This document shows positions 20,305-32,569 of a DNA stretch of 64,000 nt, in pieces. This DNA is from Dermabacter hominis NBRC 106157 (lineage in GTDB: Bacteria; Actinomycetota; Actinomycetes; Actinomycetales; Dermabacteraceae): assembly GCF_001570785.1 (NCBI RefSeq), contig NZ_BCSI01000002.1:124001-188000 (forward strand), written 5' to 3'. Under the pieces are notes generated by a model. That model was given only the letters and a program-made list of their open reading frames with translations, made no database searches and was not told the DNA's origin. Numbering within the stretch: position 1 is the first letter of the stretch; each line of letters begins with the position of its first letter. A program made the position numbers and the translations under genes.

Positions 20305-21564
20305 ATGAGCACGAGCGAAAAGGAAGGCGCGGGGTTTGATATTGCCGCGCGTCACGGAGAGAAGGCCCGCGCGGGCGTGATCCACACGCCGCATGGCGAC
20401 ATTCACACCCCTGCGTTTATCCCGGTCGGCACGAAGGCGACCGTTAAGTCGGTTCTTCCTGAGTCAATGGCACAGCTGGGCGCGCAGGCGATCCTCGCGA
20501 ATGCCTACCACCTGTATCTCCAACCGGGCCACGACCTCATTGATGAGGCAGGTGGGTTCGGCGCATTCATGAACTGGGATGGCCCCACGTACACCGACTC
20601 GGGCGGCTTCCAGGTCATGAGCCTCGGTGCCGGTTTTCAAAAGGTGCTCTCCGAATCCTTCGCGGGCAGTGACCGCGCGAGCACGCCCGACGGCACGGAC
20701 CACGCAACCAAGAAGGGCAAGGAGCGCCTCGCCCACGTGGACGACGATGGCGTGAATTTCCGCAGCTTCATCGATGGCTCCGAACACCGGTTCACCCCCG
20801 AGTTCTCGATGCAGATCCAGCATTCACTCGGCGCGGACATCATGTTTGCATTTGATGAGCTCACGACCCTCATGAACTCTCGCGGCTATCAGGAGAAGGC
20901 GCTTGAGCGCACGAGGCTCTGGGCTGAGCGGTGCATCGCCGAGCACAAGCGGCTTACCGAAGAGCGCGAGGGCAAGCCCTACCAGATGCTGTGGGGCGTC
21001 ATTCAGGGTGCGCAGTACGAGGATCTTCGACGCAAAGCCGCGCGCGACCTCGGCGCAATGACCGTCGATGAATGGCAGTTCGACGGCTTCGGCATCGGTG
21101 GTGCACTCGAGAAAGAGAACCTCTCCACGATCGTCGGCTGGGTCACCGATGAACTCCCCGAGGAGAAACCCCGCCACCTCCTTGGACTGTCGGAGATGGA
21201 CGACCTCTTCGCGGGCATCGCCGCGGGCGCCGACACGTTCGACTGCGTCTCTCCCTCGCGCGTCGCGCGCAACAGCGCCGTGTACACCGCTCGAGGGCGG
21301 GTGAACCTCACGGGCGCGAAGTACCGCACTCAATTCGCGCCGATCGACGACAACTGCGATTGCTATACGTGCACCCACTACACGGCCGCCTACATTCACC
21401 ACCTGTTCAAGGCGAAGGAGATGCTGTCCTCGACCCTGTGCACGATCCACAACGAGCGCTTTGTTGTGCGTCTCGTTGAGGAGATTCGCGCAGCTATTCT
21501 CAGCGGCGATTTTGAGGCGCTTCGTGAGGAGCGCACGGGCGCCTACTACGGCGAGTACCGCTAG
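20305..21564 (+). CDS. tgt: tRNA-guanine transglycosylase
   Basis: Exchanges guanine 34 in GUN-anticodon tRNAs for a queuine or preQ1 base. The catalytic core is clear: YTDSGGFQVMSLG with the first Asp, FDELTTLMNSRGYQEKALERT, DCVSPSRVARN, and the zinc site CDCYTCTHYTAAYIHHLF followed by CTIHN. 419 aa from ATG 20305. GAAAAT lies 6 nt before it as a weak -10, and there is no ribosome site. No queuosine synthesis genes are in the window, so a salvaged base may be used. jetA follows 29 bp downstream. Confidence 0.95.
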   Translation: MSTSEKEGAGFDIAARHGEKARAGVIHTPHGDIHTPAFIPVGTKATVKSVLPESMAQLGAQAILANAYHLYLQPGHDLIDEAGGFGAFMNWDGPTYTDSGGFQVMSLGAGFQKVLSESFAGSDRASTPDGTDHATKKGKERLAHVDDDGVNFRSFIDGSEHRFTPEFSMQIQHSLGADIMFAFDELTTLMNSRGYQEKALERTRLWAERCIAEHKRLTEEREGKPYQMLWGVIQGAQYEDLRRKAARDLGAMTVDEWQFDGFGIGGALEKENLSTIVGWVTDELPEEKPRHLLGLSEMDDLFAGIAAGADTFDCVSPSRVARNSAVYTARGRVNLTGAKYRTQFAPIDDNCDCYTCTHYTAAYIHHLFKAKEMLSSTLCTIHNERFVVRLVEEIRAAILSGDFEALREERTGAYYGEYR

Positions 21565-21593: not shown

Positions 21594-23093
21594 GTGAGTG
21601 TGAGCGATCTTCAAACCTTCGGCGGGCATAGCGCGAACGAGCGCGCCGAGGCTTACGAGCGGCTTCGCCGCATGTCCACGTGGCGGCTTCTATCCGCCAC
21701 GAAGGCGCCCGCGACCCTCGCGATTTTGCAGACGGTTTTCCCCGCGGGCGACCGTCGGCTCGACCGCTCCGAGCTCGTGGCCCGCGTGGCGAGCCACCTC
21801 GACCTCCTGCGCGGCGACGAGGATGTTCAGCGCGGCGCTTCGGAGTACGTCGACTCGTGGGTGCGCGAAGGCTATCTCACGAGGCGCGACGATCCCACGA
21901 CGGTCGAAACGACCTTCGAATTGTCGGTGTCCACCGTGGAGGCGATCGGCTTCATTTCGTCCCTCGAAGAGCATCGCCCTACGACGACGGAATCCCGCCT
22001 CACGCTCGTCATGCAGCAGTTTGAGCGGCTTGCCGAGGACACCGAAGGCGATCGAGATGTGCGCCTTCGCGGCCTCCAGCTTCGCCGCGCGCAGATCGAA
22101 AGGGAGATCCAGGCGCTGAGCGAGGGCGAACTCATGCTCCCGCCGGCCGAGCATTCCGCGGAGCGCCTTCGCGATATCCTCCAGGTCGCCGACGAACTGA
22201 GCGGAGACTTCCTTCAGTACCGCGAGGACCTTCGTGCCGTTGACCTGCATCTTCGTGAGCAGATCCTTTCGCCCGAAGGCTCGCGCGGCGAAATCCTCGA
22301 GCAGCTCCTCGCGGGCGATGACCTCCTCGGTCAATCCAAGGTGGGCAAGACCTTCACGGCGTTCTTCAGGATGCTCAACGACCCCAAACAAAACGAGCGA
22401 GCCCAGGACCTCGTGGATCGCCTCCTTTCGCGCGACTTTACGCGCACTCTTACGCGCCGCGAACGCGACCGCCTCGCGAACGTCTTCAGCGACCTGTACG
22501 AGCCCGCGCAAGAGGTCCTCGACGTCAAGACCGAGCTGTATCGCTCGCTTGCGCGTTTTGTGCGCAGCCAGGACTTCCGCCAGCACCGCGTGCTCATGGA
22601 CCTGCTCCAGAGCGCGCAGGGCCTCGCCTTGGCACAGAAGGACGAGGTGAGCCACCGCAAGGCGGAGGCTCTCGACCTCGGGCTTTCGCGTGTCCTGCTC
22701 TCGTCAGTGGCGCAGCACGTGCTCAAAGACCCGACGGACCCCGGCCTCCCGCCGGAGGCTGAGGTCCACGACGCGACAACGCTGAGTGTCGAGGTGCTCG
22801 ACGAGCTGGTGCGCACGAATGACATCGATCTCGTGGGGCTCACATCGTCCGTGAACGAGGTCGTTCACGCGAAAGGTCAGGCGAGTATCGGGCAGGTCGT
22901 TCGCGAACAAGGTGCACCGCAGGGGCTCGCGAGCGTCATTGGCCTCATGTTCCTCGCAACGGCACACGCGAACGCTCGTGAGGGGGACGCGGAGATCGTG
23001 CGCTGGCGCGAAGATTCCCCCGAGGCAGGTGGCACGGACTACGCAGCGCGCGTGCCCACGTTCTTCTTCCTCAGCGAGGTACCGGAGCCATAG
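21594..23093 (+). CDS. jetA: JetA / MksF kleisin-like subunit (DUF3375)
   Basis: 499-aa DUF3375 protein, the MukF-like kleisin of Wadjet (JetABCD) and MksBEF condensin complexes. It would bridge JetC heads and bind JetB on DNA. Recognised from the N-terminal winged-helix region (ERLRRMSTWRLLSATKAPATL), the central helical part (GQSKVGKTFTAFFRMLND) and the C-terminal FLATAHANARE and VPTFFFLSE segment. The jetA-jetB junction is normally tight, but here jetB lies 3.9 kb away with minus-strand genes between. Its 3' end overlaps the convergent membrane-protein gene by 23 bp. The reading frame looks intact. Confidence 0.88.
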   Translation: MSVSDLQTFGGHSANERAEAYERLRRMSTWRLLSATKAPATLAILQTVFPAGDRRLDRSELVARVASHLDLLRGDEDVQRGASEYVDSWVREGYLTRRDDPTTVETTFELSVSTVEAIGFISSLEEHRPTTTESRLTLVMQQFERLAEDTEGDRDVRLRGLQLRRAQIEREIQALSEGELMLPPAEHSAERLRDILQVADELSGDFLQYREDLRAVDLHLREQILSPEGSRGEILEQLLAGDDLLGQSKVGKTFTAFFRMLNDPKQNERAQDLVDRLLSRDFTRTLTRRERDRLANVFSDLYEPAQEVLDVKTELYRSLARFVRSQDFRQHRVLMDLLQSAQGLALAQKDEVSHRKAEALDLGLSRVLLSSVAQHVLKDPTDPGLPPEAEVHDATTLSVEVLDELVRTNDIDLVGLTSSVNEVVHAKGQASIGQVVREQGAPQGLASVIGLMFLATAHANAREGDAEIVRWREDSPEAGGTDYAARVPTFFFLSEVPEP

Positions 23094-23670
23094 TGGGCTC
23101 GACGGGAGGCGCGGCGCTTCGTTGCCGCGCTCCCGCGACGGCGATACCCGCGAGCGGCATCACGAGGAATCGCACCGAATCGATCACGAATGGCACGAAA
23201 ATCAACAGCAGGTTGAACCGGGGAAGTTGGTCGCGAAGGGACTCAGGGTCCGGTGAAAAAGCGACAACCACCGGGGCGAGGACCAGGGCCCAGATTGCCG
23301 CGCTCACGAGTGCGCCTGCGAGAAAAAGGAGCGCCGCGATCGCCCCGAATCGGGTGGCTCCCTTTGAGGGGCAGCGTTTAAGGGCGCGAACGATGGCGGG
23401 GGTGGCCGCGAAGACGAGCACATTCGCCGTCAGCGCCGCCACGACGCACACGAGGACCGAGCGGAAAACGGTATACGTGAGGGTGTTCACGCCTCGGAAG
23501 GCCGGCATCGTGTTCGGCGGGTCCTCGATGAAGATGGGAAACGCCAAGAGGGCGAGTGCCACGCCGGGCGCGAGAACGAGAAGGGCGGCCGCGATAGACG
23601 TCATCAGAACCCACACGCGAGCGGGAGCGCGATGAGTGTCGCCTGTAGACGCGTGAACCGGAGCGATCAT
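23071..23670 (-). CDS. Four-helix membrane protein, family A, copy 1
   Basis: I do not recognise a named family. 199 aa with about four membrane helices. N-terminal RAPARVWVLMTSIAAALLVLAPG is the first helix, and the last is in LLLIFVPFVIDSVRFLVMPLAGIAV, followed by a Pro-rich tail. The pattern of a short N-terminus, a helix, an outside loop of about 35 residues, then three helices with RALKRCPSKGATRFG between, recurs in the genes at 23667 and 26255 and in two broken copies. The stop codon lies inside the jetA 3' end. It is coupled to the upstream copy by an ATGA overlap. Confidence 0.75.
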   Translation of the reverse strand: MIAPVHASTGDTHRAPARVWVLMTSIAAALLVLAPGVALALLAFPIFIEDPPNTMPAFRGVNTLTYTVFRSVLVCVVAALTANVLVFAATPAIVRALKRCPSKGATRFGAIAALLFLAGALVSAAIWALVLAPVVVAFSPDPESLRDQLPRFNLLLIFVPFVIDSVRFLVMPLAGIAVAGARQRSAAPPVEPTMAPVPR

Positions 23671-24248
23671 GGCGCCTCCTCGAGCGCGGAGGGTTTGACG
23701 AGGTACACACGAATGCTCGCGAAGAAGAGATACACGAACCTGGCGATGTCGAGGAGCGGAGGGATGGCGAAGGCGGCGGTCACGAAAGGCACAGCGACGT
23801 TCCGTGCGTTCTCGTTGTTTGAAGTTGCCGCGTCGAGCACATTTATCATCACGAGGTAGAGGACGAGGAGCACGACGAAACTGAGAAACGCGATGACGGG
23901 GCCCACCACGAAGTAGATGAGCGAGCGAATGTTAGTCCGGAAAACCTTGCGTGTGCACCGCTTGAGAGCGGTGAACGCAAAGGGGAACGAGAACAGAGCG
24001 AGAAGGTTCGTGCCGACTAGCCAGCAGACGATGAGGACAGCGAGCGATTTCAGGCTCTCCACGAGCGAGTCGAACTGCTTCGCGTAGGTGCCCACATCAT
24101 TTGGACCCTGAGGCGATGGTGAAGGGGACCCGCTTAACAGGAGAAGAATGATAACCGGCAGTACGGGGATCATGGCCAGTGCGAGACCGCTGAACAGCAT
24201 CCATAGCGCAGCGGGGCGTCGGTGTGAGGGGGGTGCAGGCACCGTCAC
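23667..24248 (-). CDS. Four-helix membrane protein, family A, copy 2
   Basis: 193 aa, same layout as its neighbour: ALWMLFSGLALAMIPVLPVI as first helix, a 40-residue outside loop, a second helix ending FTALKRCTRKVFRTN, then two more helices ending in VPFVTAAFAIPPLLDIARF. The FxxPLLDIxRF-type ending matches copies 1 and 3. Start ATG 24248. Function unknown; divergence from the other copies is high at protein level, so the duplication giving copies 1 and 2 is old. Confidence 0.72.
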   Translation of the reverse strand: MTVPAPPSHRRPAALWMLFSGLALAMIPVLPVIILLLLSGSPSPSPQGPNDVGTYAKQFDSLVESLKSLAVLIVCWLVGTNLLALFSFPFAFTALKRCTRKVFRTNIRSLIYFVVGPVIAFLSFVVLLVLYLVMINVLDAATSNNENARNVAVPFVTAAFAIPPLLDIARFVYLFFASIRVYLVKPSALEEAP

Positions 24249-24307
24249 GCTACCTCCCTGGGCTCATTGAAGGTGACGCACACAACCTTACGGCACGCGC
24301 GCCGGGT

Positions 24308-24448
24308 GGGGGAGGCAGACGGTTACCGCGCTAAAGCAGAGCCGGTGGGGTCAGAGCGGGGTTCAGCGAAGTAAACGATGACCCCCGCAAACGACAGGAC
24401 GGCGAATCGCACAAGATCGATGGCGAGCGGGACAGCGAATGTTCCAAA
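24308..24448. repeat. 141-bp direct repeat, left copy
   Basis: Matches 26240-26380 with three mismatches in 141 bp and no gaps (offset 1932). It contains the last about 42 codons plus roughly 15 bp downstream of the family A gene at 26255-26860. Its end does not coincide with any obvious inverted repeat. Confidence 0.92.
24323..24448 (-). pseudogene. 3' fragment of a family A membrane protein gene
   Basis: Encodes only FGTFAVPLAIDLVRFAVLSF and the following about 20 residues to the stop, nearly identical to the end of the gene at 26255-26860 (two residue changes, YFAEPRSD against YSADPRSD). The 5' end is abruptly lost at 24448, 15 bp from the stop of the gene at 24463. A recent partial duplication, or the scar of a deletion between tandem copies. 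Confidence 0.85.
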
Positions 24449-24462
24449 CTGGAATCCCGCCC

Positions 24463-24987
24463 TTAGGCGATCTGGTTCTTCGCCGCCTTGGTCCCGCGCA
24501 TTCCGGCAACGGTGAGCACGATGCACAGAATCAGAATGACGATGCTGGTGAGGATCGCGAAGACTGCGCTCCCACCGTTTCCTGCTATGACTCTTTGAAC
24601 CACGACGTTGATGAGGCCCGTGGCGCCAGTCAGCAGCGTGGTGATCGTGGCAATGATGCCCATCGTGCGCGCCTTCTTGCGCCCCACGATGGCGAGCACC
24701 ACCGATGAGATGAAGGCGAGGAAAGAGACGCCGATGAACAGCAGGACAAGAAGTCCCGTGATCATGATGGCGACCTCGAAAGCGTCGCGGTTGTCTCCCG
24801 CGAGGGCTGCGCCGCCGTAGCCGATGGCCTGGCCGAGAAGCCACAGGAGCGTCATGATGCCGCCGAGGATGGCGGTGGCGAGGCCCGCGAACTTGGCAGG
24901 CTTATTTTCCGTGGGGAACCCCTGGCCGGGGTGGGCGGGGGCGCCGAAGTTTTGGGGGCCCTGTGCTGCGTGCGGGGGAATGGACAT
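24463..24987 (-). CDS. Four-helix membrane protein, family B, copy 1
   Basis: 174 aa. A Pro/Gly/Gln-rich cytosolic N-terminus of about 30 residues precedes four hydrophobic helices: FAGLATAILGGIMTLLWLLG, ITGLLVLLFIGVSFLAFISS, IATITTLLTGATGLINVVV and AILTSIVILILCIVLTVAGM. The basic loop VGRKKARTMG lies between helices 2 and 3. It resembles small actinobacterial DUF4190/DUF4064-like membrane proteins in layout, but I cannot name it. ATG 24987 with AGGA upstream. Confidence 0.75.
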   Translation of the reverse strand: MSIPPHAAQGPQNFGAPAHPGQGFPTENKPAKFAGLATAILGGIMTLLWLLGQAIGYGGAALAGDNRDAFEVAIMITGLLVLLFIGVSFLAFISSVVLAIVGRKKARTMGIIATITTLLTGATGLINVVVQRVIAGNGGSAVFAILTSIVILILCIVLTVAGMRGTKAAKNQIA

Positions 24988-25037
24988 GGAATGGGTCCTA
25001 TCTAGGCTCAGTGGATTGTGTGGGTATGGGATCGAGG

Positions 25038-25568
25038 TCAGATGGAGTGGCGGATGGCCATGCGGCCGCAGAAGATTGCGGTGATGCCAAAGAGAAGGGG
25101 GAACAATGCTGCCCCGATCAGCATGGGCTTGATCTCCAATCCGATGGCCATGGACATGCAGGCGATGAAGCCGGCTGCCGCAATCACCATGGCGATGAGG
25201 GTGATGATTCCAGCCGTGCGCGAGCGGCCGCGGCCAACGAACAGGAGGATGAGCGCGGGCCAGAAGGCGAGGGGGCCGGTACCCATCGCGGCGAGGAGAC
25301 CGATGATCCCCGGGATGACGTATGCGGGCAGTTCGTCAGCGCCCCCTTTGGGCAGCATGTTCGACGCATCAAGTGCTCCGGCGGCCGTAGTGGTGAGGGT
25401 GTAGAGGAGCCAGCCGAGGGTGAAAATCGAGGCGAGAACGATGAGGATCCAGCCGAGGACTCGGGCGGCCTTTCCGGTGGGTGCTGCAGTGGGTGTGGGA
25501 TACGGGGCGGGGCCGGGGTAATGGCCGGGGTACCCGTAACCATTGGGGGCCGAAGAGTGCTGCGTCAT
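25038..25568 (-). CDS. Four-helix membrane protein, family B, copy 2
   Basis: 176 aa from ATG 25568, which has AAAGGA 6 nt upstream; a frame reaching 25673 is not needed. Tyr/Pro/Gly-rich N-terminus (GYGYPGHYPGPAPYPTPT) then four helices, with the basic loop VGRGRSRTAG after helix 2 exactly where its neighbour has VGRKKARTMG. This shared motif makes the two genes paralogues. Role unknown. Confidence 0.75.
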   Translation of the reverse strand: MTQHSSAPNGYGYPGHYPGPAPYPTPTAAPTGKAARVLGWILIVLASIFTLGWLLYTLTTTAAGALDASNMLPKGGADELPAYVIPGIIGLLAAMGTGPLAFWPALILLFVGRGRSRTAGIITLIAMVIAAAGFIACMSMAIGLEIKPMLIGAALFPLLFGITAIFCGRMAIRHSI

Positions 25569-25679
25569 CGTGTTCCTTTTGCAGGGAAGAAGGCGTGTCG
25601 GGAAAAGCGTTATGTATGCAACTGCAAAAAGCGTGTCAGGGGTGTGACCGGGCGCGCAAGCTCGTTCACTCAAATATCA
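25569..25679. other. Gap between family B gene and family A remnant
   Basis: Contains the upstream region of the gene ending at 25038. No RNA or terminator seen. Confidence 0.3.
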
Positions 25680-26215
25680 TTTTGGGCAGGCTCGGTGGCA
25701 TCGGGCCGCGGGGCTCAGGGGAGACGGTGTGACTCTAGCATGAACGCCCGCCATGACGGCGAAGGCGATGCTAGAGAGTGGGAATAGTGAATAGATGGGG
25801 AGCACGAGGGGTAGGGCCAAGAACGGCAAGAGGACGAATGCCCAAGTGAACTCGGCGACGACGAATATCAGGAACGGGGTCAATCCCACGCTGAGAGCGC
25901 GAGGAATGATGTGCATAGAAAAGGCAAAGGTGGCGTGCTTTCGAGCCTGCCCCTTGGGGGCAATGATGACGAGGACGATCAGGGGGCGATAGTGGCGGCA
26001 ACGAGCACCGCGAGCGTTGCTGCATTGACCGCTAACGCGATGTTACTTGCTTGGATCCGCTCCGCTGCGTGCTCCGCCGTTTCGGGGGCGAGTGGGTCAC
26101 CCAGCAAGCGAAATATAGTGAATATCCGCGACCAACGCGACGAAGTACGTGAACGTGAGTAGCCCGGGAAGCAGTGCCGCTGCGCGGGTGCCGCGGCTTC
26201 TCCTCGCGGTCACCG
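25680..26215 (-). pseudogene. Frameshifted remnant of a family A membrane protein
   Basis: Reading the minus strand, membrane-protein-like coding switches frame several times. LLPGLLTFTYFVALVADIHY runs into a stop, DPLAPETAEHAAERIQASNI continues to LAVLVAATIAP in another frame, and a third carries LSVGLTPFLIFVVAEFTWAF and PLSSIAFAVMAGVHA. Together they give the helix-loop-helix order of the intact family A genes. No single frame covers it and no start is convincing. Alternatively this is noncoding DNA with chance hydrophobic frames. Confidence 0.55.
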
Positions 26216-26239
26216 GCGGATTCAGGGGCGGCAGCGCAG

Positions 26240-26380
26240 GGGGGAGGCAGACGGTTACCGCGCTAAAGCAGAGCCGGTGGGGTCAGAGCGTGGATCAGCG
26301 GAGTAAACGATGACCCCCGCAAACGACAGGACGGCGAATCGCACAAGATCGATGGCGAGCGGGACAGCGAATGTTCCAAA
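26240..26380. repeat. 141-bp direct repeat, right copy
   Basis: Partner of 24308-24448. This copy lies within an intact gene and its downstream flank, so it is the likely parent. Confidence 0.92.
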
Positions 26381-26860
26381 GACGAGCAAAGCTCTGAGCC
26401 CTTCCCACTCGGCCCTCACCGCGCCTGTGGCGGGATTGCTGGAGGCCTCGGTCGGGAGGCTCAAGGAGAGGGCGATCATGGCGGCCGCGCTCAGAACGGC
26501 GAGGAGCGGTCCGAGGATGAAGACGATAATCGCCGTGAGAGCAAAACCGATGCGCCCCGCACCGTCGCACCGCGTGAGTGCCGCGATCGCAAACGGGACC
26601 GCAGTAAGCCCGACGAAGTTCCCAGCTCCGAAGAACACGCCGAACACGAAGAAAAACGCGAAGGCGCGCGAGACGAGTTCGTCGAGCCCGGCCAGCGGGC
26701 TGCTGTCCCCAGGAGACTCGGAGGCGACAGGCACGAGCCACATCGCGCCAGGGGCGAGGAGCGGCCCCAAAACGACACAGACGAGCGCGACCGTCGCAAG
26801 AATGACCCAAACCCTCGCGGGGCTGCGATGGTTGTTGGCTAAAAGCGAGGGCAGGGACAC
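26255..26860 (-). CDS. Four-helix membrane protein, family A, copy 3
   Basis: 201 aa from GTG 26860, with AAGGAG 5 nt upstream. RSPARVWVILATVALVCVVLGPL closely matches the first helix of copy 1 (RAPARVWVLMTSIAAALLVL). A loop of about 30 residues and helices including FGVFFGAGNFVGLTAVPFAI and FGTFAVPLAIDLVRFAVLSF follow. Its 3' end is duplicated at 24323. It is divergent from jetB, leaving 117 bp for both promoters. Function unknown. Confidence 0.75.
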   Translation of the reverse strand: MSLPSLLANNHRSPARVWVILATVALVCVVLGPLLAPGAMWLVPVASESPGDSSPLAGLDELVSRAFAFFFVFGVFFGAGNFVGLTAVPFAIAALTRCDGAGRIGFALTAIIVFILGPLLAVLSAAAMIALSLSLPTEASSNPATGAVRAEWEGLRALLVFGTFAVPLAIDLVRFAVLSFAGVIVYSADPRSDPTGSALAR

Positions 26861-26940
26861 GGCGGCTCCTTACAGTGAGGTGAGCGGACGTAGTCAACCT
26901 ATGAACTCAAACGCAGGTCAGATAGAGGGCGGGTGAAAAT

Positions 26941-26949
26941 TGTGGATAA
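26941..26949 (-). promoter_or_regulatory. Perfect DnaA-box-like 9-mer upstream of jetB
   Basis: The minus strand reads TTATCCACA, the consensus DnaA box, 29 bp before the jetB start and overlapping the position of a possible -35 (TTGTGG at 26940). Only one box is seen here, so it is not an origin; chance occurrence cannot be excluded. Confidence 0.4.
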
Positions 26950-26964
26950 CTCTTGTGCGGCCGG

Positions 26965-26970
26965 TAGGCT
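26965..26970 (+). promoter_or_regulatory. Putative -10 box of jetB (leaderless)
   Basis: TAGGCT 7 nt before GTG 26978 with no ribosome site. TTGTGG at 26940 is a possible -35 at a long 19-nt spacing. It supports separate transcription of jetBC from jetA. Confidence 0.45.
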
Positions 26971-26977
26971 TGAGGGC

Positions 26978-27787
26978 GTGGAAAACGAGAAGGGTCCGCG
27001 CATGCGTGAACACGAGGAAACCGCCGCCGACGGTCGCACTGCTCCGGCGGCAACGCCGAGCACTGACCGCGACGAATGGGCGCTCGCAAGCGACGACGAA
27101 GACCTCACCTACGCCGGCTCCACCGGGGGAGCGCTCGTCGAGGACTCCCGCCGCGTTCTCGTTGCCCTGCTTCAAGGGCCCTACCTGGACGGTCGACGCG
27201 ACCCCCAGCGCTACGGCCAGCTCCTTCGCGATCGCGCGCAGATCGAGAACCGCCTCGCCGACATGTTCCTGGAACTTGTTCTCGACGATGACGCGCAGGT
27301 CGCATTCGTGCGCCAGAGCGAGGACGACCCCGATGCCCCAAAGCTTCTGCGCCGTCTCACAGGCCTCAACCGGCTCGACACCGTGCTCCTCCTCGTCCTG
27401 CGCCAGCACTTGCTCACGCAGTCCTCGCGCGGGCAGCGCGCGGTGGTGAGTGAGATGGAGCTCGTCTCGACCCTTTCGACATACCGCCGCACCGATTCCA
27501 CGGACGAGGCCGGCTTTACGAAAGACATCCGTAGCTCGATCGCGAAGCTTCAACGCGCCGGCCTGCTCGAGGAACAGGGAGACAGCTACGAAGTCTCGCC
27601 CGTCCTCAAGCTCATGATTACTCCGGACACCGCGCGCGAGTTCACCGACCTCTATATGCGCGCTGGTGACGACGTGGGCGGCGCCGCCGATGCCCTTGAT
27701 CGCGAGGCAAAAGACGACACCTTGGGGGAGGCCGACGCCCGCCCCGATGACACGAGCGTCGCATCCGAAAGCGAGGCCACCGCATGA
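26978..27787 (+). CDS. jetB: JetB / MksE subunit (DUF4194)
   Basis: DUF4194 protein, the MukE-like tandem winged-helix partner that binds the kleisin JetA and DNA in Wadjet/Mks complexes. 269 aa from GTG 26978. The conserved core runs from SRRVLVALLQGPYLDGRRDP through LNRLDTVLLLVLRQHLLTQS to KLQRAGLLEEQGDSYEVSPV. Low-complexity, acidic tails of about 40-50 residues lie on both ends. The jetC ATG overlaps its stop (ATGA), so the two subunits are translationally coupled. Confidence 0.85.
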   Translation: MENEKGPRMREHEETAADGRTAPAATPSTDRDEWALASDDEDLTYAGSTGGALVEDSRRVLVALLQGPYLDGRRDPQRYGQLLRDRAQIENRLADMFLELVLDDDAQVAFVRQSEDDPDAPKLLRRLTGLNRLDTVLLLVLRQHLLTQSSRGQRAVVSEMELVSTLSTYRRTDSTDEAGFTKDIRSSIAKLQRAGLLEEQGDSYEVSPVLKLMITPDTAREFTDLYMRAGDDVGGAADALDREAKDDTLGEADARPDDTSVASESEATA

Positions 27788-30700
27788 AAGCCCAGGACGT
27801 CTTCGACGGGATGGATGACCCCTCGCTTGAGCCGGCAGGCGTCGGCCCCGGTGCCGCGCACAAGCCCGCTACCGACCCCGAGCACCCGCATCCGGGCCAG
27901 TGGCGTCTCAATCACGTGCAGCTCAGCAACTGGGGCACGTTCCACGGGACACACGACCTCGCGATCAGCTCGAAGGGCTTCTTCCTGACGGGCGGTCCCG
28001 GTACGGGCAAGTCCACGCTCCTGGACGCCGTGAGCGCGCTCCTCACGCCACCGCGTGCGCTGCACTTCAACGCGGCGGCGTCCGACGCCGGGCCCCGCCA
28101 AACAAAGAACCGACGGACTGTCGCAAGCTACGTTCGCGGCGCGTGGGCCATGCATTACGACGCCGCCACCGGTGAGTTCAGCCAGGAAGTGCTGCGCGAC
28201 AAGACCACCCTCAGTGTGGTGACGCTCCGTTACGGCAACGGTCAAGGGGACACCCTCCAGCTCAGCCGCATGTTCCTCCTCCAGGCAGGCCACACGTCGG
28301 ACTCGGACGTCAAGAGCCTCTACGTGATTTCGTCGAAGCCGTACGACGTTTCTGACCTGCGCCCGTTCGTGGGCACCACGATCGAGGGCCGCGAGCTCGA
28401 GAAGACCCTCGAGGGCACCGAGACTTTCCGCCAGTTCCGCGAGTACCGCGCGCGCTTCTCGCAGATCCTCGGCATTCCCGACGAGAAAGCGCTGGGGCTC
28501 CTGCACAAGATCCAGTCCGCGAAGGAACTTGGCGACGTCAACGCCCTGCTGCGTGACTACATGCTCGACGAGCCACGCACATTCGACCTCGCCGATCAGG
28601 CCCTCGCGAACTTCCAGAACCTCTCCGAGGTGTACGACGCCCTCGTGACGGCCCGCAAGCAGCGTGACACCCTGCTGGTGTTGAGGGAGGCCGACGCCAC
28701 CTGGCGCGAGGCTCGTTCCCGCGGCAGCGAGTTGGTGGACCGCCGCAATGACATCGACACCTTCTCCGCGCGTCACCTCGTATCCCTGCTCGCCGCAGAG
28801 AAGGAACGCCTCGTGCGAGACCAGGATCGCCTGCGCGCGCAACGAAACCGCCTCTCCCAGGACGTATCCGAGGCTCGCGAGGACCTCGCGCAGCTCAAGG
28901 AACAGCGCAAGAACGCCGGTGGCGGCGAGATTGACGACTGGAAGAAGCAGATCGCGGGCCTCGAGGTGGAGCGCGAGCGCCGGCGCGAGCGCGCTACGGA
29001 GTTCTCGGGCCAGCTGGCCCTCCTCGATCTCGGCACGCCCTCCAACGAAGAGACATTCCTGAGCATCCAGCGCGACGTCCAGGGCCTGCGGAGCGCGCTC
29101 GAGGAGGCGGAGAAGAACGAAGCGCAGGTGCAATGGGAGGCCGAGGCGAAGGTTCGCGAGTGGGCCCGCACCCTTGAGGACACCCGCCAGGAGGTCGCCT
29201 CGCTCACCTCGCGCGCCTCGAACCTTCATTCCGATGACGTGGCGCTGCGCGACCTTCTCGCCGAGCGCACGGGAGTGTCTCCGAGCGATCTCCCCTTCGC
29301 CGCTGAGCTCCTCCAGGTGCGTCAGGGTGATCAAGAGTGGACGGCCGCCGCGGAGCAGGCGCTGCGAGGCCTCGCGCGCTCGATCCTCGTCCCGGATCGC
29401 ATCTACCGCACCTTTGCTCGTGAGATCGACGGTATGAAGCTCCGCCGCCGCGTGAGCTACAACCGCATCAACACGAACATCAAGACCGCCCCCAAGAAGC
29501 TCGACCCCCGCGCCCTCGGCACGAAGATCGAGATCAAGGACGGCGAGTTCCACGCCTGGCTCTCCGCCGAGATCTCGAGCCGCATGGACTACCTGTGCGC
29601 CGAGAGCCTCGAGGAGTTCACGAAGTACCCCCGCGCGGTTCTGCGAAGCGGCCAGATCAAGCACTCGGCTACGCGGCACGAGAAGAACGCCGACAGGCAG
29701 ATCAACGACCGCTCCAACTGGGTGCTCGGTTTCGATAACCGCGCGAAGCGCGCCGTCTTCGAGCAGGAGCGCACCCGCGCGGAGCAGGCCCTCTTTGAGG
29801 CCCAGGCGCGCCGCCGCGACCTCGAGAAGGAAGCGACCCAGCGCCGCCACAAGCTCTTCGCGCTCCAGGCGATCCAGGCCGTGACGTGGGATGACGTGGA
29901 CGCCGCGAGCGTGGCGAGGCGCATCGCGAACCTGCAGGACATGGTGCGCGCCGCCGAGGACGGTTCGAGCGCCCTCACCCAGATTGCCCGCCAGATCGAC
30001 CAGGTGGAGATGTCGATCAACGAGAGCGACGAGGAACTGCTCGAGGTAGTGGGTCAGCTCGGCCGCGTCAACGAGCAGCTCGATCAGATCAGTGAACGCC
30101 ACCTCCAGGCCGAGGCGCAAATCGAGAACCGCACCCTCTCGGAAGAGACGGTGGCCGACCTCGGGGCACGCTTCCGTGCGATCGCCCCGAACCTCCTCCT
30201 GAGCAACATCGACCAGGTCACGAAGGACGCCTCCGCGACCCTCGATGCGGAGCTCATGACGCTCCAGAAGCAGACCTCGCGCGCCGAAGAGGACATGCGC
30301 ACCGCCATGCGCGAGTTCTCCCGCCAGTGGCCCGCCGACGGCGCGGACGTGGACACCTCTCTCGAGGCAGCTCCCGAATACCTCGCCATCCTCACGCGGA
30401 TCGAGCAGGAGAAGCTCCCGGATGTTGAGGATCGCTTCTTCGACTTCTTCACGGGCAACACCCTCGGTGACGTGCAGGCCCTCGCCACGGCGATCGCTCG
30501 CGAGCCCGCCCAGATCAAGAAGCGTCTTGCGAAGATCAACGAGCTCCTCGCCCAGGTGGAGTTCCACCAGGGCCGCTTCCTCCAGCTCTCCATGCGGCCC
30601 GTGCACCTCGCCGCGCTCGACGAGTTCAAGCAGGCCCTGGGCCAGGCCGTGAACTCGACGCTCGAAAACGACCTCACGCTAGACCGTGACATGGCAGAGG

Positions 30701-31182
30701 AGCGCTTCCTCGCCCTGCAGTACCTCATGGGCATCATCACGAAGGCCCGCACGAACGACGACCTCGCCTCGCGCGCGATCCTCGACGTGCGCCGCCACGT
30801 TCGCTTCCACGCGGAAGAGGTCAATACCGAGGGCGAGGTTGTGCACGCCCACCAGTCCGGCGGCCCCCTGTCGGGTGGCCAGAACGAACGCCTGACGACG
30901 TTCTGTCTCGCCGCGGCACTGCGCTACCAGCTCGCCGGGACCGGCGTGGATGTGCCCAGGTACGCGCCCATCATCATCGACGAGGCGTTCAGCAAGGGTG
31001 CGGGCAAGTTCATTACCGCCGCTATGGAATCCTTCCGCCACTTCGGTTTCCAGGTGGTCCTCGCGAATCCTGGAAAGAATCCGCAGGCGCTCGCGCCGTT
31101 CATCGGCGGCGTAGGCGTCGTCTCGATCCGCGAGGACCGCTATTCCTCCGTGAGCCTGATCGATTTCATTCCGGCTGCGTAG
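27784..31182 (+). CDS. jetC: JetC / MksB SMC-like ATPase
   Basis: 1132-aa SMC-family motor of a Wadjet/MksBEF complex; it would extrude DNA loops. Walker A is GGPGTGKS at residues 70-77. Long coiled-coil arms occupy about 300-460 and 660-900. A hinge-like domain lies in between (about 490-640, containing [12 protein letters not shown]). The ABC signature [11 protein letters not shown] is near 1028 and Walker [12 protein letters not shown] near 1062. SbcC/RecN are excluded by the DUF4194 and DUF3375 partners. No jetD follows: the next gene is convergent and overlaps the 3' end by 17 bp. Confidence 0.9.
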
Positions 31183-32569
31183 CGCTTGCGGTGAGCTCCT
31201 CGAGGGCACCGAGGGGGATCGTGAGCCACTCCGGTCGGTTTTGCGATTCGTACACGGCCTCGTAGGCGGCCTTGTCGAGCTCGAACACGCGCAAGAGAAC
31301 GCGCAGATCCTCCGGGTCGCCCTCACCCCCGCGCGCGGAACGCTCGGCGAGATACGCCTCGAGGAAGGCCTCCCGCGCCTCGCGTGCCCATGCGCGTGCA
31401 TCGATGCCCTCATTCAGTTCAACGTAGGCCGCTGCGTAGTCGATGCTGCGCAGGATCCCCGCGACGTCCCGGCAGGGAGAATCGACCTTCACGCGCTCCG
31501 CCATGGGGCGCAGCGGTTCGCCCTCGAAGTCGAGAAACACCCAACCCTCGCTCGGTGAATTGAGGACTTGCCCGAGATGGAGATCGCCGTGGATTCGTTG
31601 GAACGGCGGCCACGAGATCCTCAAGGCCCGCATGTAGAGAGCGTTTGCGGCGTCGGTGAATTCCTCGAGTGCCGGGAGCGTCTCGGCGTGGTGTGCGAAA
31701 CGACGCTTCATCGACTCGAGGGTGAGCGCGAGCGTATTGGTGCTCACGCGATCGGTGGGCAGGACGCGCGCGAGATCCGTGTGGATCTGTGCGAGGGCGG
31801 TGCCTAGGTCCGACGCCTGCTCGGAAAAATCGATGCCTTGGGCGGCAGCGATGAGGGCTTCGCGCCAGGCATCTTGCACATCCGGAAGGAATCGGTTGAG
31901 CAAGGCGACGTCGGAGCTGCCCAGAGCGTCGACACCGCGCACGTACCCGAAGAACTGCGGGATCTGCGTGCTGCCCTCGGATTGGAGTGCCTCTTGAAGT
32001 TCGGCGTCGGGGTTTGTGCCGTCATGGAGATGGCGGAAAAGCTTGAGGATGTACTCGCGGCCGCTTTCGGTATGAATGATGAGGGACGTGTTCGACTGCT
32101 CGCCCACGAACCTCTCGGTTGCCGTGATCGCCTTGAGATCATCCTGTACACGCTGGGCGGTTTCAGCGATCAGCATGGGTTCAAGCGAAAGCCCCTCGCC
32201 CGATGCTCCCTCGAAGAGGGCGCGCGCGAGAAGCGCGCGAGCGCGGTCAATCCCGGTGGCGTCATACACGTTGTACTGCCCCGCTGGAGTGTCGACCTGC
32301 GTGATGAGACTGTCGAGTTCACCATCGTCGACCCGGCCGTCCTTGTTCCAGGCCACGGGCAAAGCAAAGCGCACGCCATCACCGGCACCGAGAGCGACAA
32401 ACGACACCACGAGGTGATCATCCTCGGCAAGACGAGTCCAGCCGGCAATCTGCAGCTTGGGAGCGGCACCGTACGCACCGCTGTACCAGCGCTGTCCCAT
32501 GATGAAACGCGAGGCGTCCTCGAGGAACTTTTCGCGGCGAAAGTGATCGGAAAACACGATGCTGAGCAT
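31166..32569 (-). CDS. Maltokinase-like aminoglycoside-phosphotransferase-fold kinase
   Basis: Similar to Mak1/Pep2 maltokinases, which phosphorylate maltose to maltose-1-phosphate with ATP for GlgE glycogen/glucan synthesis. 467 aa, the usual size. The N-terminal cap includes [10 protein letters not shown]. The kinase core has [11 protein letters not shown] near residue 327, with the catalytic Asp, and then [20 protein letters not shown] with the metal-binding Asp. [17 protein letters not shown] follows, typical of the family. treS or glgE is not adjacent, so the substrate is assumed from similarity only. Confidence 0.85.

Follow-up and report, generated by a model that had tools for sequence, protein, structure and literature searches.

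The window, a 64,000-nucleotide stretch of the Dermabacter hominis NBRC 106157 genome, encodes the JetA, JetB and JetC proteins of a type I Wadjet but no JetD, and we consider it quite probable that these proteins form a complete Wadjet-derived motor that lost its nuclease long ago and is the only condensin of the Dermabacteraceae. Wadjet JetABC, an SMC motor built as a dimer of dimers, is believed to extrude loops of DNA, and JetD has been proposed to cut when a small circle has been fully extruded (PMC10586767, PMC10512200). An initial annotation of the locus had left three explanations standing: a nuclease encoded elsewhere, a nuclease-free MksBEF-like condensin, or a recently broken defence system. 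The second is the best supported of the three, as JetABC is intact and conserved and JetD is absent, and sequence comparisons add something that the annotation did not contain, namely that the complex appears to have replaced SMC-ScpAB across the whole family.

The jetABC locus and the absence of JetD

The host genome, a member of the Dermabacteraceae, is assembled into 28 contigs totalling 2.16 Mb and is 99.97% complete. PADLOC, Pfam and PDB comparisons identify JetA, JetB and JetC as type I Wadjet proteins (Table 1): JetA has the DUF3375 domain, JetB is a MukE-like KITE protein, and JetC is a MukB-like ATPase with intact ABC motifs. A predicted structure of JetB (mean pLDDT 71, with both ends low) gave JetB of the Pseudomonas aeruginosa PA14 and Escherichia coli Wadjet complexes as the top Foldseek matches, followed by MukE. 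JetC scored 13.3 bits against the Pfam model for the MukB N-terminal domain, under the cut-off of 23, and its nearest named record is Dermabacter indicis JetC (86% identity). The composition is also that of an MksBEF-type system, with a MukBEF-like SMC protein, a kleisin and a KITE protein but no nuclease.

Table 1. Features of the jet locus, in window coordinates
Feature	Position	Strand	Basis
tgt, conserved upstream neighbour of jetA	20305..21564	+	PF01702/TIGR00430; synteny
jetA (kleisin; DUF3375), MksF-like	21594..23093	+	PF11855 409 bits (cut-off 28.6); PADLOC JetA1 507 bits; PDB JetA 79 bits
Small membrane-protein ORFs inserted between jetA and jetB	23071..26860	-	ORFs; no Pfam family above cut-off
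ORFs of the insertion	23071-23670, 23667-24248, 24463-24987, 25038-25568, 26255-26860	-	
jetB (KITE; DUF4194/MksE)	27002..27787	+	PF13835 141 bits; MksE PF21980; JetB1 197 bits
jetC (SMC-like ATPase, 1132 aa)	27784..31182	+	JetC1 1165 bits; PDB JetC 258 bits
JetC Walker A, GGPGTGKS, aa 70-77	27991..28014	+	Motif inspection
JetC ABC signature, SGGQ, aa 1030-1033	30871..30882	+	Motif inspection
JetC Walker B, APIIIDE, aa 1061-1067	30964..30984	+	Motif inspection
Maltokinase-like kinase gene, convergent, at the place expected for jetD	31166..32569	-	PF01636, PF18085, TIGR02457

jetA begins 30 bp downstream of tgt, and the two are possibly co-transcribed. The jetB reading frame reaches back to a GTG at 26933 (ORF 26933-27787, plus strand), but conservation favours the ATG at 27002 as the likely start, and jetB and jetC share 4 bp at their junction. 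Profile searches and motif inspection bear out the initial annotation in placing all three jet genes on the plus strand, in finding the JetC nucleotide-binding motifs intact, in describing minus-strand membrane-protein genes that part jetA from jetBC by 3.9 kb (we measure 3.8-3.9 kb), and in naming a convergent kinase gene as the next gene after jetC. The window therefore has no contiguous jetABCD operon. The kinase gene overlaps the 3' end of jetC and is a neighbour, not a part of the machine; neither are the ORFs of the insertion, the gene content of which varies from species to species. Two membrane-protein genes of the insertion (24463-25568) differ from their counterparts in another Dermabacter species (genome G003, L045 10345-11552) by a Ks of only ~0.01, compared with ~0.8-0.9 for the jet genes of the same two genomes, suggesting that this segment was recently exchanged horizontally.

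The nuclease of type I Wadjets (DUF3322 plus the Toprim domain JetD_C) was not found. In the whole genome that contains the window, neither JetD_C (PF09983; threshold E<=1) nor the N-terminal domain of JetD (PF11795; threshold E<=0.1) gave a match, and both searches detected the Corynebacterium glutamicum positive control. The genome search with JetD profiles that had been proposed thus returned no JetD domain, extending the reported lack of JetD/MksG after jetC to the entire genome and disposing of the suggestion that the nuclease is encoded elsewhere. Nor did the window show a JetD remnant, and neither did the jet loci of relatives that carry orthologues of this JetABC (hereafter core JetABC), where the genuine matches were paralogous Wadjets. 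One apparent remnant, in the Brachybacterium genome G020 (L061), was rejected because Pfam shows an IS21 transposase whose sequence had entered the JetD profile.

JetD_C occurs in 8 of 47 Dermabacteraceae genomes. In five of the eight, all Brachybacterium, JetD lies beside a second, contiguous jetABC whose JetC is ~31% identical to that of the window; in G005 and G027 the JetD matches are partial or isolated only; and in G044 the sole jetABC, with a JetC 26% identical, has jetD alongside. Judged by sequence, the JetD-bearing Wadjets of a few Brachybacterium are sporadic, separate copies.

In characterised systems, the N-terminal region of JetB contains a motif that JetD contacts (PMC10586767). 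Close to its N-terminus, JetB carries an LWxxDxGxL box, which may be that motif, in 17 of 23 JetD-linked proteins and in none of 22 core proteins, that of the window included. Because seven of ten other nuclease-free JetB proteins keep the box in an LF form, its loss is supportive but does not cleanly mark the loss of JetD, and we rejected it as a marker.

Conservation of JetABC across the Dermabacteraceae

The family was sampled with 47 genomes (Dermabacter, Brachybacterium, Helcobacillus and others), placed in family and genus by their taxonomy labels. JetA was found in all 47 and JetC orthologues, 66-100% identical, in 46, the exception being G044; the best JetC match in the order outside the family is 34% identical. 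The JetC tree joins the core copies in one clade (support 100), which has a long stem and short internal branches and broadly tracks the genera. The clade falls with JetD-linked type I JetC, and nuclease-free JetABC of other families are placed elsewhere. Ka/Ks values between the window and its relatives in Dermabacter and Helcobacillus (0.05-0.19 for jetA, 0.11-0.17 for jetB and 0.11-0.22 for jetC) indicate that the jet genes are under purifying selection; over greater divergences, conservation of JetA and JetC exceeds that of the kinase, the hexosaminidase and the Ig-like protein encoded nearby.

Gene order in relatives, a comparison that the initial annotation had recommended, is constant in one respect: in all 35 genomes with both genes on one contig, jetA precedes jetC on the same strand. 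The gap between them has a median of 20.7 kb and extremes of 0.74 and 76.8 kb. In the two genomes of genus g6, jetA, jetB and jetC are contiguous between tgt and an Ig-like gene, without jetD. A tree of FtsY and Ffh makes g6 the first branch within the core genomes (support 99 for all of them together and 91 for those other than g6), and therefore a contiguous jetABC without jetD likely came first and the insertions later. No other nuclease or conserved partner gene adjoins jetABC in the compact g6 locus, and the genes inserted in the other core loci that we inspected are unrelated (siderophore uptake, transporters, regulators and membrane proteins). In Brachybacterium sp. SGAir0954, for example, core jetB and jetC are separated by a siderophore uptake cluster (Peripla_BP_2, two FecCD and an ABC-SIP fusion; L137 9525-15546). 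By the annotation's own account, a nuclease-free, split arrangement shared by all relatives with a different partner would speak against it; the arrangement is essentially what we find, but the partner is not.

One genome departs from this pattern. In G020, an IS21-family element interrupts core jetA (L061 11801-14383), and an identical 2,583 bp copy lies between jetC and jetD of that genome's Wadjet (L062 6064-8646). The interruption suggests that the kleisin may be dispensable, at least in G020, where jetABC of the Wadjet might compensate. Gene splits in G031, a single-contig assembly that is 85% complete, look like sequencing errors.

Loss of SMC-ScpAB in the same lineage

In the window genome, all 31 candidates were scored against the canonical SMC model, and none exceeded 26 bits (cut-off 567). 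Across the order, with two candidates per genome scored, SMC_prok_B was found in 341 of 396 genomes. The sample included 33 core-JetABC genomes, and all of these were without it; G044, the family member without core JetABC, scored 900 bits. We also searched with a fused SMC/ScpA/ScpB/FtsY query, in which the SMC heads and FtsY came from G044 and ScpA and ScpB were approximate actinobacterial-type sequences validated by controls. All four proteins were found in seven of seven SMC-bearing controls, G044 among them (weakest control match 1e-37). In 36 core genomes, the same query found FtsY, as well as Ffh, and no SMC, ScpA or ScpB was among the matches listed (to ~1e-5). By these searches, the core genomes have no canonical SMC with ScpA and ScpB. 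In G044, the closest relative that bears SMC, the gene order is ileS-folC-DUF4233-ndk-smc-ftsY-amtB-glnB-glnD-ffh. The core genomes keep this order with smc missing, such that ndk (or DUF4233) is followed directly by ftsY, with no detectable smc remnant at the ndk/ftsY site and with some losses of amtB, glnB or glnD. The scpB and scpA matches of G044 (C2, 113216-113785 and 145288-146055) are ~31 kb apart; in the other controls they lie within ~2 kb of each other.

Since G044 has SMC and lacks core JetABC, the family-wide core JetABC and the loss of SMC-ScpAB can be placed on one branch, following the divergence from G044, and since the core copies form one clade, the replacement is one evolutionary event and not many independent ones. 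Six genomes of family f4, possibly Bifidobacteriaceae (G081, G096, G136, G149, G162 and G370), have no SMC, ScpA, ScpB or core JetABC, indicating that SMC can be lost without this replacement. Some of the six carry a JetD-linked Wadjet, and ~10 further f4 genomes had no SMC match in the order-wide search of two candidates per genome. Contiguous nuclease-free jetABC is also present in several other families, in SMC-keeping genomes, where it forms two clades (L210, L211, L212, L217 and L219-L224).

A 2013 survey of ~100 actinobacteria, including one Brachybacterium, recorded Smc, ScpA and ScpB in nearly all (PMC4255298). In the literature available to us, we found no report of SMC loss in the Dermabacteraceae; the original MksBEF survey (Petrushenko 2011) may have mentioned these genomes. 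ParA and ParB are retained near the origin in the sister Dermabacter genome G003. Five parS-like sites are clustered beside parAB in this SMC-less genome, near the origin (L225 11312-12062). With ParA, ParB and parS retained, loading of JetABC by ParB is possible.

Proposed role, alternatives and relation to known systems

JetABC most likely carries out chromosome folding in the Dermabacteraceae, as judged from gene content and conservation. An ancestral type I Wadjet motor would have lost the JetD nuclease and the JetB N-terminal box, leaving what may be a plain loop extruder, and this nuclease-less JetABC would have become the sole chromosomal condensin as SMC-ScpAB disappeared. It would extrude chromosomal loops by the dimer-of-dimers mechanism of Wadjets, minus the cutting step, and take over the folding and segregation performed by SMC-ScpAB in other actinobacteria. 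We think it likely that a plasmid-cutting Wadjet was domesticated at the family root, its nuclease lost and SMC-ScpAB fully replaced, with ParB perhaps rewired to load a Jet-type motor.

The absence of jetD, the interrupted operon and the IS21 element in jetA of G020 could instead mark a decaying or recently broken Wadjet that lost jetD and took up genes between its parts. We regard this as very unlikely, because the proteins are full-length with their catalytic motifs, the same JetABC without a linked jetD is held under purifying selection in 46 of 47 genomes with a tree that broadly follows genus, and the earliest-branching g6 has a contiguous jetABC that likewise lacks jetD; this option of the initial annotation consequently falls. 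That the complex is still a defence system, with a nuclease supplied in trans or with plasmids restrained by extrusion without cutting, is an unlikely reading for other reasons. The motor is closely related to plasmid-restricting JetABC, its P-loop and signature are intact, and the C. glutamicum homologue acts on plasmids only (PMC10123090). Its universality and slow evolution nevertheless contrast with the patchy Wadjets found in this family, the compact g6 locus offers no nuclease gene, and the missing SMC-ScpAB would be left unexplained.

Equally improbable, in our estimation, is that the Dermabacteraceae live without any chromosomal condensin and that JetABC has an unrelated, accessory role. 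The six f4 genomes show that SMC, ScpA, ScpB and core JetABC can all be absent, and in C. glutamicum deletion of smc is reported to cause no growth phenotype (PMC11898615); yet every Dermabacteraceae genome that we examined and that lacks SMC carries JetABC, the core form of which is absent from G044, the member that has SMC. We give almost no weight to the idea that SMC-ScpAB is present but was missed by the searches or fell in assembly gaps. The order-wide search did score only two candidates per genome, but every candidate was scored in the window genome without yielding an SMC, the independent fused query was negative in 36 genomes, single-contig genomes among them, and smc is gone from its syntenic place.

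The reading that we favour, a domesticated Wadjet motor serving as sole condensin, bears on the origin of MukBEF and MksBEF, for which reviews have only speculated about descent from a defence system (PMC10586767). If correct, it would be a second, independent case of what is speculated for MukBEF, and one in which ParB-parS was kept. How a defence system turns to housekeeping could be studied directly, because G044, a close outgroup, keeps the starting state (SMC-ScpAB and a JetD-armed Wadjet) and five genera are fixed for the derived one. These skin and environmental bacteria, which have lost the standard chromosome-folding machine family-wide in the sampled core members, offer a natural test of a Wadjet motor acting on the chromosome without its nuclease and of ParB-parS acting without SMC.

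Among known systems, type I Wadjets (JetABCD, also MksBEFG or EptABCD) are the closest, with JetA, JetB and JetC recognised by profile and PDB matches and JetC also by its tree. The Dermabacteraceae JetABC differs from them in lacking JetD, in being noncontiguous except in g6, in its family-wide distribution and in the loss of the JetB box. C. glutamicum MksBEFG is likewise an actinobacterial type I JetABC homologue; unlike the Dermabacteraceae, C. glutamicum has the MksG nuclease as well as SMC-ScpAB, and its MksB affects plasmids and not chromosome organisation (PMC10123090, PMC7083940). The nuclease-free MksBEF of P. aeruginosa is a three-subunit motor of the same kind, but this species still has SMC-ScpAB (PMC7485682), whereas the Dermabacteraceae have lost SMC-ScpAB and retain JetABC as their only apparent condensin. 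The parallel is with MukBEF of enterobacteria, a condensin of the Muk/Mks/Jet superfamily that replaced SMC-ScpAB in a clade (PMC10586767), although JetC falls below the threshold of the MukB Pfam model, ParABS is retained in Dermabacter, and the replacement occurred in another clade as an independent event.
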